Below are positions 6,779 through 26,159 of a stretch of 64,000 nt of DNA, piece by piece. Numbering within the stretch: position 1 is the first letter of the stretch; every line of letters begins with the position of its first letter. Source of the DNA: Gaeumannomyces sp. JS-464 (taxonomy: Eukaryota > Ascomycota > Sordariomycetes > Magnaporthales > Magnaporthaceae); NCBI GenBank assembly GCA_002197995.1, contig NGZR01000003.1, positions 1,860,001-1,924,000 of the forward strand, written 5' to 3'. The position numbers and the translations under genes are program-made. The notes beneath the pieces are model-generated. The model was not told the DNA's origin, ran no database searches, and was given only the letters and a program-made list of their open reading frames with translations.

Positions 6779-9246
6779 ATGTCCCAGCAGGAGAGCCCCC
6801 CAGAAGAACGTATCAGCCGAATTTCAGTAAGCGAGAAAAGCAACAGCAATCCGGGAACAGGCCTCAAAGCCGGAGCCAAAGATACGGTGTAAGTATCACT
6901 ATGTTCTACCTTAGCACCAGGCCTCCCCTTTGGTGTACTTTCTTCTAGCGTTGCCTGCTGACATACCTTTCCCACTTCCAGAACTGTGCTGAACACATCC
7001 CGAATCGAGAGCAGTCCCGAGGCAGCACGGAAAGGAGATCCAGAGGGAACCAGCCCTGGCGTGTCAAAAATCAGGGGCTTCATTGAAAGTACGTTGAAGG
7101 CATGGGGCTTGCTCCCCATCTACACTCAAATCGTCAACCTGCGGGTCACCCTCGAGGCCTCAAAACATGTCGTAGTTCACAAGAACCGCTTTCAGGCCTC
7201 CTTGGCTGCAACAATCCACCTTGTTCCCATCGCCGCCACTGGGGTGGTGGCTTGGCTGTTCTACACAGAACAGTGGATCGGCGCCGACCTCGTCCGACCG
7301 GACCTGAAGTGGGCTAAGCAGCTCATCTTCCTCATCAACTTCAGCGCCAAGTTACTGGAGAGTTTCATCACAGCCTCCCTCTCGGCCATGCTCTTCACAT
7401 TTATCCGCTATGAAGTCGCCCTCGGCAAAGGGGCGCCCCTGGCCGCCTACCTCGCCGGGGGCGCGGTCCGCAACTCCTCCTTCTTCTGGTCCGACGACTT
7501 ATTCGGAATGGCGCGCGGAAGCTTCTCGTCAATTCCCAAGAAGGTCTTCTTTCTCGCGTTCTCCGTCTTCTGCTGTGTCGTCATCACCTTTACGGCACCC
7601 CTAGCGGCAACGGCTCTGCTGCCAACAAACGGCTGGTTCACAACGGGTGGTAGCTCGTTTTATGTCAACCTTAAAAAGTATAGGATTGGCGATACCAGCA
7701 GGCCCGAAGCCAACATCACCTTCACCGGCACGCTAGCCGGAGATGTCTGCAAGGTTGCAGGAAACCCGAAGTGCCCTTCGGAAGGTTGGGAGTCGATGGA
7801 AAAGCTGGCGGACACCTTTCGCAGCCACAAATACCTGGACGAAGAAAAGAAGCGGTTCTTTAGGAAGCCACCTGGGATCTGGTCCACCCCGGTCCCCGGG
7901 GCCGTGATGCAGTTTTCCCTCGGTGTCCGCGAAGATCCAACCGTTCCGAGGCCGTGGGCGGACTCTCTGATCCTCATGCCACACCGCGCAATCGCCGTGG
8001 CCATGACAGATGTTATGAGCCACTTCTGGGAGGCCATGCTCCTGATGGCCGAGGTGGAGAAGATCGACCGACGGGGGTCGAGGTTTCGCTTCTGGTCCTT
8101 CTCGCCCCACGCGGGTGCTTTGACACGATGCCAGGCAACTACTATCGGGCAGAGCGTATCTCTCGCAGTCAACGGCAGCCAACTCATCGCCTTCCCCGAT
8201 GTTCGCAGCAAGGAGGCGGGGAAGCTGTACCAGAACATGACCATCCCGGACGCCGGGGTGGACGGGTTCCTCTCGACGCGGAACAGCTCCGCCCCGCAGC
8301 TGTTCTTCTTCAATCCCATCACCCCGGACTCGGGCGGAACGTCTCCATTGCCACGGTCATATCTCTACCTCTCGAGGGCCAGGGTTCGGTGCTGTACGGC
8401 TGCGTGTCTAGCACAAAGTGGATCTGGACCGACCTCGAAACTACCCCTGACAAGATGATGACCACGCGCCCTCAGCCCCTGTGGCCCGGCTGGGAGGCTG
8501 GCGCTTTCCATCGCGTACTGATCGAGAAGCCGTACGCGGACCTCATCGACGTCCCCATCAGCCCTTCGACTAACACGACCATCTTCCAGCGCCTGGCCAC
8601 GGCCGCCGGGCTGGCCGAGCCGGGAGACGCGGCTTCTCGCTCCGCGGTCCACACACTTGGCCACGTGGAGACGCTTATCAACATGCTGCTCGCCATGGGC
8701 CTGTCAAACGCGGGCAGCGACGCCGACACCGAGGCCCGACTCGCCAGGCCCGACGGCAAGTGGTGGCTCGAGCTGTTCACGACCAGGCCCATCTTTGGAA
8801 TCTTCCAACTGAGCGATATCGACCCTCTATATCGCGGCGACGCATTCGTGCCGCCCGTCCCGACGCCCGGGGACCAGGAGCTCCCTCTCTGGTTCAACGC
8901 CGCCGTGTTCGGCTACGGGTACTCGCACAACAGCGAGAACGCGAGCCCGCTGCTGGCCGGACTGTTCGCCTACTCGGCCGTCGCCGCCCTGTTCCTGCTC
9001 TGGAGCGTCGGCTTCGTCGGCGTCGCCAGCTCAAGCTGGGACTCGCCGCTCGAGATGGTGGCGCTCGCGCTGCGCAGCCCCCGGCCCCCCGACGAGGTGC
9101 TGCCCAGCAGCCTCGTCGAGAATCCAAGGGTTCTGGGCGGGCGGTACTGCATCGCCGCTGATGGCGAGGATCTGCTGCTGCAGCCGATGGAGGACAAGCA
9201 GGACGATATTGAGAATAGGGTGCTGCCAAATACGCCGTACAAATGA
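6779..9246 (+). CDS. uncharacterised multi-pass membrane protein (one apparent frameshift)
   Basis: Exon 1 is 6779..6888 (MSQQESPPEERISR...), then a 93-base intron (GTAAGT...CCAG) and exon 2 6982..9246. Hydrophobic segments include HLVPIAATGVVAWLFY, QLIFLINFSAKLLESF, VFFLAFSVFCCVVITF and, near the C-terminus, AGLFAYSAVAALFLLWSVGF. This gives three N-terminal helices, a large central region with several N-glycosylation sequons (probably lumenal or extracellular), and a C-terminal helix before a short hydrophilic tail. The layout resembles the many lineage-specific fungal membrane proteins without assigned function. Around 8331-8339 the frame must step back by one base: upstream it reads FFFNPITPDSGG, downstream NVSIATVISLPLEGQG. 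No intron fits, so a missing G in the G-rich run is likely. With that, the product is about 791 residues. Function unknown. Confidence 0.7.
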
Positions 9247-19561: not shown

Positions 19562-21616
19562 CTTCGGATGCGGGGCACAGGTCGTATCGAAGGATGGGGG
19601 GTTGTCGGCCAGTAGCGAGACGATTCGTGGCTGGCTCGTAAGATAGAGAGGCAAGACCTCAGATCGGTCTCAGCTTCTGGCGGGATTGCGAGGTGCTTCG
19701 AGCATAGACCAAGATAGTTTAATTCGGGGACGTGAGAGATTGCGGCCAGGTATGTCCTCTCGAATGAGTTGAGTTGGCGCGTGCACCCAGATCTGGTGCG
19801 AGGCGCGTCCGAATTGTCGTCGACGGAGCAGCAAGACTGGCGAGGGCCTATCGCATTATCATCGGTTTCGGATTTGGCGGGCGGTTCGTGGGTACAAAGA
19901 AAACGCGGCGAATGGCTTGAAGCTAGGAGGCGAAGAGAACCATGCAGCTAGGTCGGCGGGGAGGAATCAAGGTGGCGGATATGAATGCTGGCGGTCGGTA
20001 GGTGGTTCGGTGCTGCGAGGACTTGTAGATGTTGATGGGTGCGAGTCGAGGTGCGAAGTGGAAAGGTGATGGGCGGGTTTGGGGTTGGGAGCTGGGAGCC
20101 GGTCGCGCTAAGGTGGGAGGCTGACTAGTACTAATACGGACTAGCGCGTTCTCGTCCACAGGCGTGTCGGGAGCTTGGTTCAAAACACAGGACCCTCAGG
20201 CACGCCAACTCGGCGGGTCTCCAATTCACCCTCACTTGACCCCAGATTCAAGACTGCATGTCAGTCAATGTCGACGGATGGATGCTGGACGAGAACGTCC
20301 CGCCAGATCATAGAGAGGTCGACAATATTAAGTATACCAGACTATAAGAGTCACAATCGGCGAGTTTCTATCGTGTTGGGCACGTATTGAGTGTTGCAGA
20401 AGCAGTCCGATTCTCAGCACTCAACCCCCACTCAATTGCTGTCCCCATTTTTTGTCGTCATTGTCCCAGCGCGCATCAAATGCCTTACCTTACCTTGCCT
20501 TGCCCTGCCGGCCACCTGGTTGAGAAAACAACATTGTGGGGAGGCTGGGTTGGCAAGCACTGATCATAATCCGCCCCTGGCCGATGCTATCGAAACGAAT
20601 ACCGAAAGAGCGAGAGGCAGGCTCGTGCACAAAACACCATTGCTCTTTGAAAAAACCACAGCCAATCGACAATGTTGATAGTCTCCGTGATCTGTTCAGG
20701 GGAAAGGGATAGAGCGCGACTCAAAAAGAATCCACCATGCAACAACAAACATGGCATGGGGGGATTGCTATTGAAATAGAGGTGGCGCACGCGCTGGAGA
20801 CGCACGCACGATGCCCAGCGACACAACAGCCAGGCAATAAACACGCCCCAGCACGTCCATCCCACACCACCCCGCAGGCAAAAAGAAGCGACACAACGAT
20901 ATCTCCCAGGGCGTCATCCAGGGCCACGACTGGATTTGTCGCGTTTTCTTGTGTTTTGCCTATTGCGAGAAAGAAGAGGAAAAAAGCAGGACCCAGCCAA
21001 GGAGGCCTGCAGGAACGCAGCTAATCCCGGCTCTCCTCCAACGGCATCGCCTGCCATCCAAGCCGCTGCAGTTGACGTGGAGGGGGGTTTGTTTGTTTTG
21101 TTTTCAGATTGCGCAGTGCTCAGTCTGGTCGGAGGTTGTGGCGGCGGCGGTCCAAACGGCCTCGACGCGTCCGACTGGTCGGAAACAAAAGTTCGAGGAT
21201 ACATGTCAGGGGCCTCGAGCAGGGGTGTCACCCATTTTGCCACGGCCCCATTGGTCGGACTCCCCTGCAGCCCAGCAGTTGGCCCAGTTGCGCGCTTCCA
21301 TTCGCGCCTGGCCGTGGCGTTTGTTGTCTTTTTAGCTCCCTGCCTCCGCGGTCCCACTTGTCCCCGTGTTTCGCGCCGTCGCGACAGCCGTTCCGCAACC
21401 GACCGGCTAAGGAGCCCGGACAGAAAGAGAGGCAGCTCACCCGGCCGCGAACCACCCACGTTCACTCCACATGGGCATGCCGCATATTGGAAAAAAAAAG
21501 AGAAAAAGGTCACCCCGGGACCGACCAAGTATTTGTATTTAGAGTTACTACAATGTATAATGTTTGTAGTTGGTATCAGGTCGACACTCTTGTATCCCGA
21601 AGGTTGCGAAGAAAGA
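19562..21616. other. intergenic, Cdh1 upstream region
   Basis: About 2 kb without a supported gene. A minus-strand open frame of 296 codons and a plus-strand frame of 291 codons around 20.9-21.8 kb owe their length to the GAG/AAG-type repeat in the last exon of the micro-exon gene and are not credible on their own. Confidence 0.5.
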
Positions 21617-22857
21617 TCAGATGCACTTACTGCTGCTTCTGCTGCTGTTGCTGATGCTGCTGCCGCCGCCGCTCCTCCTCCTCCCCTCCTCCTCCTCCTT
21701 CTTCTTCTTCTTCTTCTCCTTCTCCTTCTCCTTCTCTTCCTCCTCCCTCTCCCGGTCCATCTCCTCCTGCTCCTCCCGGAACTATCTCGTATTAGCAACG
21801 TCACATCGTAAAATAAGCTGCTTGCCCATCAATTACTTACCTGGCACTCAAGCCTCCATCTCTGATTGCAGGGCATGGTGTCAGTATTAATCAGGTCTTC
21901 AAGTCCACTGCGTTGGCAGCAAATGAACATACGGCCGCTTCGTTGGCCGCCTCCTAACCGGAAGTTAGTCACGGACGCCGTTAGGAAATAGGATAGGAAC
22001 CAAGTTGAAAAATACTAACCAGAGCGCGGACCGCAAATTCCTATTAAACAGGTATACATGCGGTTAACATTTATTTCTTCGCAAGTACAACATCGCACCA
22101 CACAGAATGGTCTTTACCTCTGCCTTCAATTGATGTATCTTTGTGACGAGAGGATGGAGGCCATGGCTGTCAGTCGCACCCGCAGTAGCGGTAGTTATCT
22201 GGAACTTTCACTCACGGCCATCTGTCTTGCGTGCTCCTATAAAAAACACGCGTTAGTAGCAAATGCCGAAAGCCTCATCGTAAGTGTCTAAGCAAAGAAA
22301 ACCTAGGTAATAGCATAAGAGGCAACCATCCAAGAATGATATCGCAGGTAGGGAGGATGTGATGGGGAAATGAGGAATCAGAGTGGCACTGTTTCGTCCT
22401 CGCTGGATGAGAGAAAACGAGATACTTACCGCGCGCCGTCTCTCCTAACGCTATGGACGCAGATAAGTTAGGAAGACAATCATCTTGGGGATGGAGATGT
22501 TGGTAGCACTTACAGCAATAAGCGCATCGAGCTCGTTGCACAAAGAAAGGGTTAGCACAAACACTAGCTTTTTCTGGCAACAATGCGGCTGCTGTGTACC
22601 TCGTCGGTAAGGGCCTAAATGGCAGCATTAGTTTGTTAGTCGATTTAAACGCGGGTTGAAGACTGAAGAAGGGGAGAGAGTAGAGATTGTCGTTTACGTT
22701 GGCGTCAGGGGCCTACGAAACCACCAATGCGTGTGCGGCCAGCGACAATGACCTATCGAGCAAAAACATAGGCAGGGGAGGAATCGTCTCCGTATCGAAG
22801 GGAAGAGTGTGGGTGATAGTGAATCGGAACGAGAGCACGAACGTTCGAGGACGCCAT
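21617..22857 (-). CDS. micro-exon gene encoding a coiled-coil protein
   Basis: Eleven exons, every junction phase 0: 22857..22843 (MASSN), 22712..22698 (APDAN), 22614..22600 (ALTDE), 22531..22514 (LDALIA), 22444..22430 (ERRAR), 22236..22216 (EHARQMA), 22138..22118 (IHQLKAE), 22040..22020 (EFAVRAL), 21953..21933 (EAANEAA), 21861..21841 (RWRLECQ), 21781..21617 (FREEQEEMDRERE then Glu/Lys runs). Exon sizes are 15, 15, 15, 18, 15, 21, 21, 21, 21, 21 and 165 bases. Introns of 59-193 bases have GT-AG ends and mostly strong branch points (CTAAC, CTGAC, CTAAT) 10-30 bases before the acceptor. Joined, the exons give an uninterrupted, strongly helical, charged sequence typical of coiled coil, 115 residues as read. 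The first donor (GTTCGT) is weak and intron 5 (193 bases) could hide another exon. The 3' end is uncertain: in another frame the last exon ends in Gln-rich sequence and TAA at 21629..21627. Family and function unknown. Confidence 0.75.
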
Positions 22858-22947
22858 TTCTAGAACCAGGCAGCATTTGTCAGCAATGGGTACCGAGAAT
22901 AAGAGAAGAATCATAGCAGACAGTCAGCCCCGGTGGGATGTACATAC

Positions 22948-22962
22948 TTCTCGTGTATGTTG
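22948..22962 (-). other. probable 5' UTR micro-exon of the coiled-coil gene
   Basis: The 15-base segment CAACATACACGAGAA sits between an acceptor (CTAACC...AATTAG) and a GTATGT donor. The next intron (22947..22860) has a GCTGAC branch site and a CTAG acceptor two bases before the ATG at 22857. It cannot be joined in frame to the coding exons, so it is probably a leader exon. Confidence 0.5.
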
Positions 22963-23051
22963 CTAATTTTCCAGAGACAAGTAGGTTAGCTCGAGTGCCG
23001 GTGTGCTCAAATCGGTTGGGGAAGGAGAGATATTTGGAGGACAATGGGGAC

Positions 23052-24509: not shown

Positions 24510-26159
24510 TCATTGTTTCCGTTCTCTGGCCACGTCCCTGGCCCCACTGTCGATCCCTGTCGCAGAAATCTCGCCCTCGCCGCTGAGCAGAGGAATGACG
24601 TTGATGGCGTCGTGGACGGTCTTCTTGGCGCCGTCACCCGAGGGCGTAGCCGACTCGAACTCGGCGTCGTCTGCGTCGCCGCCGATGCTGCTGGCGCCGT
24701 CATGGACGGGCCCGAGGGATGGGCTGGCCAGGGACTCCGAGTGGCTCTGCCACTTTGAGACCTCGGCCTTCATGGCCTCGAGCTCCTTCTGAAAGCGTTT
24801 GCCAAAGACGTCGATGTAATAGGTGGCGCCGTTGTGGACACTCCAGGCGAAGACGAAGATGAGGAAGGCGGCCGAGGCCCACCGGCTGTAGAACCAGACG
24901 GGACAGGGCAGCATAGTCAGGACGGCGTATGAATACTGAATCATCATGAAGGCGGGCTCCTGCAGCACATCGGGCAGGGCCAGGACGATGCGACCGATCC
25001 AGGTCTTGGAGTAGGACTTGCGCAGCCAGGTGAAGGAGGTAGGGCGGCCGGCGGCGATCTTGTCGCGGCGGCGGACCGTGATAAAGAAGTAGTACGTCAG
25101 CTGCCAGAAGGCATACGGAATAGTGGACCAGGCCAGCATGGAGATGACGTTGGCGTAGGCGGTCGGGGAGCCCTTGGGTGAGTGCTTGACCTGATAGATA
25201 GCCGGAAATCGGGTCTCCTGGTACGCCATGTCGACCAGGTGAACAATGCAGTGCAGCGTGGCGCAGGGCATGATGTGGATGAAGAGCGAGGTGACCTTGT
25301 CGAAGCTGTGGAAGACCAACGAGTTGCGCCACATGACGATGGCGACGGCGTTGTTACCAAAGGCGAGGCAGTAGACGGCCGTGAAGAGGCGCTTGGAAGC
25401 CGGGAAGACCCAGATACTCAGGAGCAGGAGGAAGTTGACGAAGTAACAGAGGTCGGCGAGGAAGTAGTGATAACCACGGCGATGGTAGGTAACGAAGCGG
25501 ATGGGCAGGAAGTAGAGCACCTGGGCCGTGTACCACAGCGGCATCCACTCAGGGAAGCCACCGATGAGGTAGCCACTGATGAAGATATTCATGACGCCGC
25601 AGATGAACGAGACCTTCTCGCGCGCCGTCACGGCCTTTGTGTCGTTCCACTGGCGACCCAGCTTCTCGACGCTCGTGCGCATGCGCTTGCGGTACCGTTC
25701 CAGCTGTTCGTCGGCCGAGGGCACGCGCTGTCGCCACTCCTCCACCATGCGCTCGCGCGCCACCTGTCCCCTCGCGCGGAGGGCCTGCCGCGACTTGGAG
25801 ATGCCCTTCTGGATCTTGCCCAGCTGCAGTTCGAGCTGCTGCGGGAACGCAAAGTTGTCGAGTAGGTCGAGCACGGTCAGGCGGTCGAGCGGCGGCAGCG
25901 CCTCCCAGTCCTCCTGGTACGAACTGCTGCCCGAGAAGGACGGGTTGCGCGACAGGCGTGGGCTCTTGGGGGTCGTCGCCCCGAGCGTCGGGGTCTCGGG
26001 GAGCATGGGGGCGGCGTTGCTCTCAGCGCGCTCGCGCGGCGAGGACGACCCTTGCGACGTGGCGCCTTCGTCCGGCGTCATGATGTGCTCGCTGTCGGTC
26101 AAAGTGCTTGTCGATTTGGATTTAGGGATCGGTGCCGGCTTCGGATCTGGTTCTGACAT
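24510..26159 (-). CDS. GPC1: glycerophosphocholine acyltransferase Gpc1
   Basis: Acyl-CoA-dependent acylation of glycerophosphocholine to lysophosphatidylcholine in the endoplasmic reticulum membrane, part of phosphatidylcholine remodelling. A single exon encodes 549 residues. Residues 1-85 are a Ser/Pro-rich disordered head. A basic helical stretch follows (about 105-185, including RARGQVARERMVEEWRQRVP). The membrane domain (DUF2838 family) starts near residue 190 with FICGVMNIFISGYLIGGFPE and continues through LWYTAQVLYFLPIRFVTYHR, FLADLCYFVNFLLLLSIWVF, FIHIMPCATLHCIVHLVDMA and WFYSRWASAAFLIFVFAWSV, about eight helices in all. The tail is acidic and Ser-rich. The start at 26159 (MSEPDPKP) is preferred over an upstream in-frame ATG at 26255 because the extra residues are not protein-like. 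Divergent from SMC1. Assignment is strong on family resemblance to yeast YGR149W. Confidence 0.92.
   Translation of the reverse strand: MSEPDPKPAPIPKSKSTSTLTDSEHIMTPDEGATSQGSSSPRERAESNAAPMLPETPTLGATTPKSPRLSRNPSFSGSSSYQEDWEALPPLDRLTVLDLLDNFAFPQQLELQLGKIQKGISKSRQALRARGQVARERMVEEWRQRVPSADEQLERYRKRMRTSVEKLGRQWNDTKAVTAREKVSFICGVMNIFISGYLIGGFPEWMPLWYTAQVLYFLPIRFVTYHRRGYHYFLADLCYFVNFLLLLSIWVFPASKRLFTAVYCLAFGNNAVAIVMWRNSLVFHSFDKVTSLFIHIMPCATLHCIVHLVDMAYQETRFPAIYQVKHSPKGSPTAYANVISMLAWSTIPYAFWQLTYYFFITVRRRDKIAAGRPTSFTWLRKSYSKTWIGRIVLALPDVLQEPAFMMIQYSYAVLTMLPCPVWFYSRWASAAFLIFVFAWSVHNGATYYIDVFGKRFQKELEAMKAEVSKWQSHSESLASPSLGPVHDGASSIGGDADDAEFESATPSGDGAKKTVHDAINVIPLLSGEGEISATGIDSGARDVARERKQ

Follow-up and report, generated by a model that had tools for sequence, protein, structure and literature searches.

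The nearest analogues of the locus described here are the micro-exon genes (MEGs) of schistosomes and the bicycle genes of aphids. In Schistosoma MEGs, as the excerpted account presents them, a chain of very small symmetrical exons makes up much of the coding region, and exon skipping keeps the reading frame (PMC4350168). Bicycle genes, in the corresponding excerpts of their description, carry many micro-exons of one phase and have no homologues that an ordinary search finds (PMC9168663). Among fungi, excerpts of two reports describe a single microexon in Xlr2 of Trichoderma virens, with condition-dependent inclusion (PMC11121469), and exons of 2 to 10 amino acids, down to 6 bp, in P450 genes of Phanerochaete chrysosporium (PMC1184071). 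What these fungal genes and our candidate have in common is that the fungal spliceosome includes exons shorter than 30 nt. The microexons of Xlr2 and the P450 genes, as excerpted, are isolated in ordinary genes, whereas the core of the candidate has eight or nine in a row. In the part of the open literature that we covered, no fungal gene built of a micro-exon chain was found.

The candidate resembles the Schistosoma MEGs in that ten phase-0 exons of 15 to 21 nt account for 183 of its 348 coding nucleotides, a share that varies with where the ends of the gene are placed. It differs from them in its fungal neighbors, in showing no sequence relation that we could find and no protein homologue, and in its equal 21-nt exons, which run along one helix. 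In the excerpted MEG account the products have a signal peptide, and none is evident in the fungal candidate on reading; alternative splicing, also described for MEGs, is hypothetical in the candidate. With the bicycle genes it shares one-phase micro-exons and the absence of detectable homologues. According to the same bicycle gene excerpts, however, the internal exons of those genes are almost all phase 2 (the candidate is phase 0 in 10 of 10 joins), the genes average about 17 exons, and they encode salivary secreted proteins, unlike the candidate, which has no evident signal.

The window, the whole 64,000-nt stretch of DNA analyzed (C23:1860001-1924000), comes from an assembly of 53.0 Mb in 34 contigs. 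The candidate is a minus-strand locus. On one side of it a GPC1-like acyltransferase gene (DUF2838) ends at 24510, and on the other side a CDH1/Fizzy-related gene begins; both neighbors are likewise on the minus strand, and in the latter an N-terminal frame with a likely ATG near 19562 was identified by reading. Among the best 120 of 1,579 matches, the GPC1-like neighbor has relatives at up to 96% identity, and the nearest named one is from Pyricularia sp. CBS 133598, at 79%; the DNA is therefore likely to come from a fungus of the order Magnaporthales. A preliminary description, made from the sequence alone, had proposed ten micro-exons of five to seven codons, all in phase 0, followed by one longer exon. 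At its junctions the exons measure 15, 15, 15, 18, 15, 21, 21, 21, 21, 21, and 165 nt and introns 1 to 10 measure 130, 83, 68, 69, 193, 77, 77, 66, 71, and 59 nt; the proposed phase pattern is present throughout, all ten introns have GT-AG ends, and the joined frame stays open for 115 amino acids before a stop. Branch points had been called clear in most introns, and we found CTAAC, CTGAC, TTAAC, or CTAAT before the acceptor in nine of the ten, the exception being intron 1. Feature coordinates are collected in the table.

Features of the candidate gene, in order of transcription; positions are those of the window.
Feature	Position	Strand	Remarks
Probable 5' UTR intron	22860..22947	-	GTATGT, CTGAC, TTCTAG; score 7.0; absent from preliminary model
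Exon 1 (preliminary model)	22843..22857	-	MASSN; ATG plausible, downstream junction doubtful
Micro-exon 2	22698..22712	-	15 nt, APDAN; uncertain, left out of higher-scoring models; intron 2 score 5.4
Micro-exon 3	22600..22614	-	15 nt, ALTDE; good branch point and acceptor upstream; intron 3 acceptor weak GAG, score 0.4
Micro-exon 4	22514..22531	-	18 nt, LDALIA; donor GTAAGT, intron 4 score 8.9
Micro-exon 5	22430..22444	-	15 nt, ERRRA; alternative 22450-22430, 21 nt with in-frame TAG, via acceptor 22451
Micro-exon 6	22216..22236	-	21 nt, EHARQMA; ATG inside at 22221
Micro-exon 7	22118..22138	-	21 nt, IHQLKAE
Micro-exon 8	22020..22040	-	21 nt, EFAVRAL
Micro-exon 9	21933..21953	-	21 nt, EAANEAA
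Micro-exon 10	21841..21861	-	21 nt, RWRLECQ
Long exon 11	21631..21781	-	Low-complexity E/K/R tract, then G/S-rich; end probably at GTAAGT donor
Probable further intron	21548..21630	-	GTAAGT, CTGAT, TTGTAG; 83 nt, score 5.5
Possible last exon	21510..21547	-	ITLNTNTWSVPG plus stop, first codon split by intron; end of top-scoring models

Each intron received a score from its donor, branch point, acceptor, and length, and introns were then linked through exons of 9 to 33 nt (12 to 27 nt in the intron-scoring run). The frame-ignoring search returned seven introns (22513-21782) enclosing six exons of exactly 21 nt each, with a score of 30.8; when frame was kept, seven introns were again chained, with exons of 15, 21, 21, 21, 21, and 21 nt and a score of 30.1. 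The maxima in 600 dinucleotide shuffles of positions 21401-23000 for each search were 11.0 with frame ignored and 11.9 with frame kept. A second weight set, close to the frequencies of 30 introns that we collected ourselves from the same genome, gave 26.2 (frame kept) and 27.6 (frame ignored) against shuffle maxima of 13.8 and 11.4 (300 shuffles each). Elsewhere on the two strands of 264 kb, which took in the window and a further 200 kb and covered 0.5% of the assembly, no chain did better than 13.0 in the frame-ignoring search or 11.0 in the frame-keeping one. The splice signals are far too regular for chance, and the opinion of the preliminary description that the architecture is extreme for an ascomycete fits our sample, in which this is the single such chain. 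We conclude that a spliced gene is very likely real and that it is likely protein-coding.

The runner-up chain (13.0) lies some 117 kb from the candidate, in the stretch L016, and belongs to a GTP cyclohydrolase II-like gene, which was identified by Pfam PF00925 (E 6e-17) and by a match to structure 7ej3_A (E 9.4e-95) and served as a control. Eight of the nine introns bridged by the 7ej3 alignment were placed exactly by the same search, with scores of 4.3 to 9.3; the errors were one wrong donor and one false intron (7030-7083). The donor was misplaced because the true one is apparently GC: the alignment shows an insertion of eight residues, which points to a probable GC-AG intron at L016:6152-6233 (donor GCAAGT). 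The control gene also contains a 4-nt exon, TACC (L016:6861-6864). With this exon the alignment to the solved structure runs across it gap-free (EVTKYLVYNARKR in the L016 peptide, EVTKFLVYNARKR in 7ej3); without it, the flanks share no single frame. This homology-supported exon suggests that the spliceosome is able to handle exons far below the sizes proposed for the candidate. The candidate's introns score, from 1 to 10, -5.0, 5.4, 0.4, 8.9, 6.8, 4.9, 4.1, 6.3, 7.9, and 7.8, so that introns 2 and 4 to 10 (4.1 to 8.9) lie near the control range and introns 3 and 1 below it. In the control gene, GC content contrasts little between exons (0.59) and introns (0.57).

Both ends of the gene depart from the preliminary description. 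The ATG at 22857 is favored because the putative upstream intron ends two bases ahead of it. The proposed link from exon 1 to exon 2 is without splice-signal support: intron 1 (22842-22713) has the donor GTTCGT and no branch point, no good donor follows the ATG, and the top models that start there drop or replace exon 2. Left unspliced, the open reading frame from this ATG meets a stop after 34 codons. At the other end, the originally proposed stop codon (21617-21619) falls inside the intron-like stretch 21630-21548, and the C-terminal end probably differs from the one first described.

The coding model is weakest at the choice of acceptor for intron 4. Two acceptors, at 22451 and 22445, stand six bases apart and score 9.6 and 8.9; the first gives an exon 5 of exactly 21 nt with an in-frame TAG, and the second gives an open frame. 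If both are used, they could possibly act as an on-off switch. The chain could also be spliced with exons 1 to 5 untranslated, through acceptor 22451, an exon 5 containing TAG, and a start at ATG 22221 in exon 6. The higher score of the first acceptor, the row of six consecutive 21-nt exons that it yields, and the weakness of introns 1 and 3 all fit this arrangement. We nevertheless consider it improbable, given that the second acceptor keeps exons 2 to 5 open, that a helix free of glycine and proline runs on from ALTDE, and that a strong intron ends just ahead of ATG 22857.

The peptide joined across the core of the chain was compared with 20,000 random joins, each assembled from stop-free pieces of matching length that lie between AG and GT. 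The 46 residues of exons 4 to 10 contain no glycine or proline, which 5 of the 20,000 random joins equaled, and 36 of them are E, A, R, K, Q, L, or M, a helix-favoring set of our own choosing, which none equaled. The other two frames of this join both contain stops. Codon usage gave a P value of 0.08 against random stop-free joins and is not decisive alone. GC content in exons 2 to 10 is 0.62; of 931 circular shifts, 3 were as GC-rich and 44 gave stop-free joins. Compared with shuffled residues, the five heptads of exons 6 to 10 are alike in register (P = 0.005), and among periods from 3 to 14 the best was 7; both were tested after the exon lengths had been seen. The preliminary description had called the product an uninterrupted amphipathic, charged helix. 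Its helical and charged character is retained in our reading of the core (introns 4 to 10, and less surely 2 and 3), but amphipathicity is not supported: against shuffles of the same residues, the whole-helix moment has a P value of 0.56 and the best 18-mer 0.21. No hydrophobic N-terminal stretch was seen by eye in MASSNAPDANALTDELD, from a model whose N terminus is itself uncertain, and an effector-like secreted protein was rejected on reading for want of an evident signal sequence. A recent DNA-level tandem duplication was likewise rejected (P = 0.48 for exon DNA, 0.80 for intron interiors, and 0.025 for whole units, against shuffles); the whole-unit likeness probably comes from shared splice signals.

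Searches of a protein database rich in fungal proteins gave no homologue at an E value of 10 or better, whether the query was residues 1 to 72 (14 candidates) or the alternative model (37 candidates); gene finders would likely miss such exons. Pfam returned nothing past the cutoff for the peptide (the best E value, 0.069, came from the low-complexity tail) and no match for the 61-residue helix part by itself, and matches to solved structures were noise (E 1.1). The earlier remark that no named fungal family has such an architecture agrees with the absent homologue and Pfam family. A DNA search of the genome revealed no paralogue: its 14 matches were the locus itself and low-complexity hits to the last exon, which is rich in GA/GC. 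A protein search of the genome carries no information on paralogues, because even the separate exons of the locus cannot give a match there. Tracts similar to the GA-rich exon 21631-21781 occur at 13 other listed places in the genome.

A spliced long noncoding RNA with micro-exons, its open frame incidental, would account for the missing homologue and domain and for the nonsignificant codon score. We think this quite improbable in view of the five equal frame-keeping exons, the absence of stops, the helix bias, and the GC contrast. Nor is a role for such an RNA as a snoRNA host supported: Rfam gave no matches at the gathering score in the window and none overlapping the candidate at E values up to 5 (a subthreshold match at 20850-21003, E 1.1, lies outside it), and introns of 59 to 83 nt leave little room. 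A snoRNA host gene was rejected on the absence of intronic snoRNAs in Rfam, which may lack fungal snoRNAs. That splice-like sites have lined up by chance, in intergenic DNA richer in AT whose GC content of 0.47 (0.58 in the sample) raises site density, is highly improbable when none of 600 composition-matched shuffles exceeded 11.9, against 30, and 264 kb held no rival.

For the core (introns 4 to 10, and less surely 2 and 3), the reading that fits best is a chain of phase-0 micro-exons joined into one charged helical peptide. The core consists of micro-exons of 15 to 21 nt, five consecutive ones exactly 21 nt long, separated by introns of 59 to 83 nt and one of 193 nt. We consider it probable that the locus is a real minus-strand protein-coding gene whose middle is made of about eight phase-0 micro-exons and whose product is charged and helical. 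Intron definition is established for fungi. Each short intron would be recognized as a unit and the introns removed one by one, so that exon length would set no limit. The mRNA would then specify an unbroken, highly charged alpha-helix, about 60 residues long, followed by a tract rich in E, K, and R, and the product, with no evident secretion signal, would most likely act inside the cell as a helical or coiled-coil scaffold. Each 21-nt exon would supply seven residues, one step along the helix, so that a product lacking such an exon would be two turns shorter with frame and register intact. Retention of intron 1 or of any of introns 3 to 10 gives an in-frame stop or a frame change, and failure of splicing would thus silence the gene. 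We further speculate, while regarding it as unlikely, that this is a heptad-per-exon coiled-coil gene that arose by tandem multiplication of an old exon-intron unit, in which exon skipping or the choice between the intron 4 acceptors adjusts the length of the helix or turns off the product, and that it is the first member of a class invisible to ordinary gene finders.

If RNA confirms the chain, this filamentous ascomycete would have a gene whose internal exons average about 18 nt, well outside the fungal genes described in the literature that we covered. Usual gene prediction would miss such a gene. It would be a test of how far intron definition can release exons from any limit on their length, and the row of equal 21-nt exons would make the coevolution of exon and heptad directly testable in related species.
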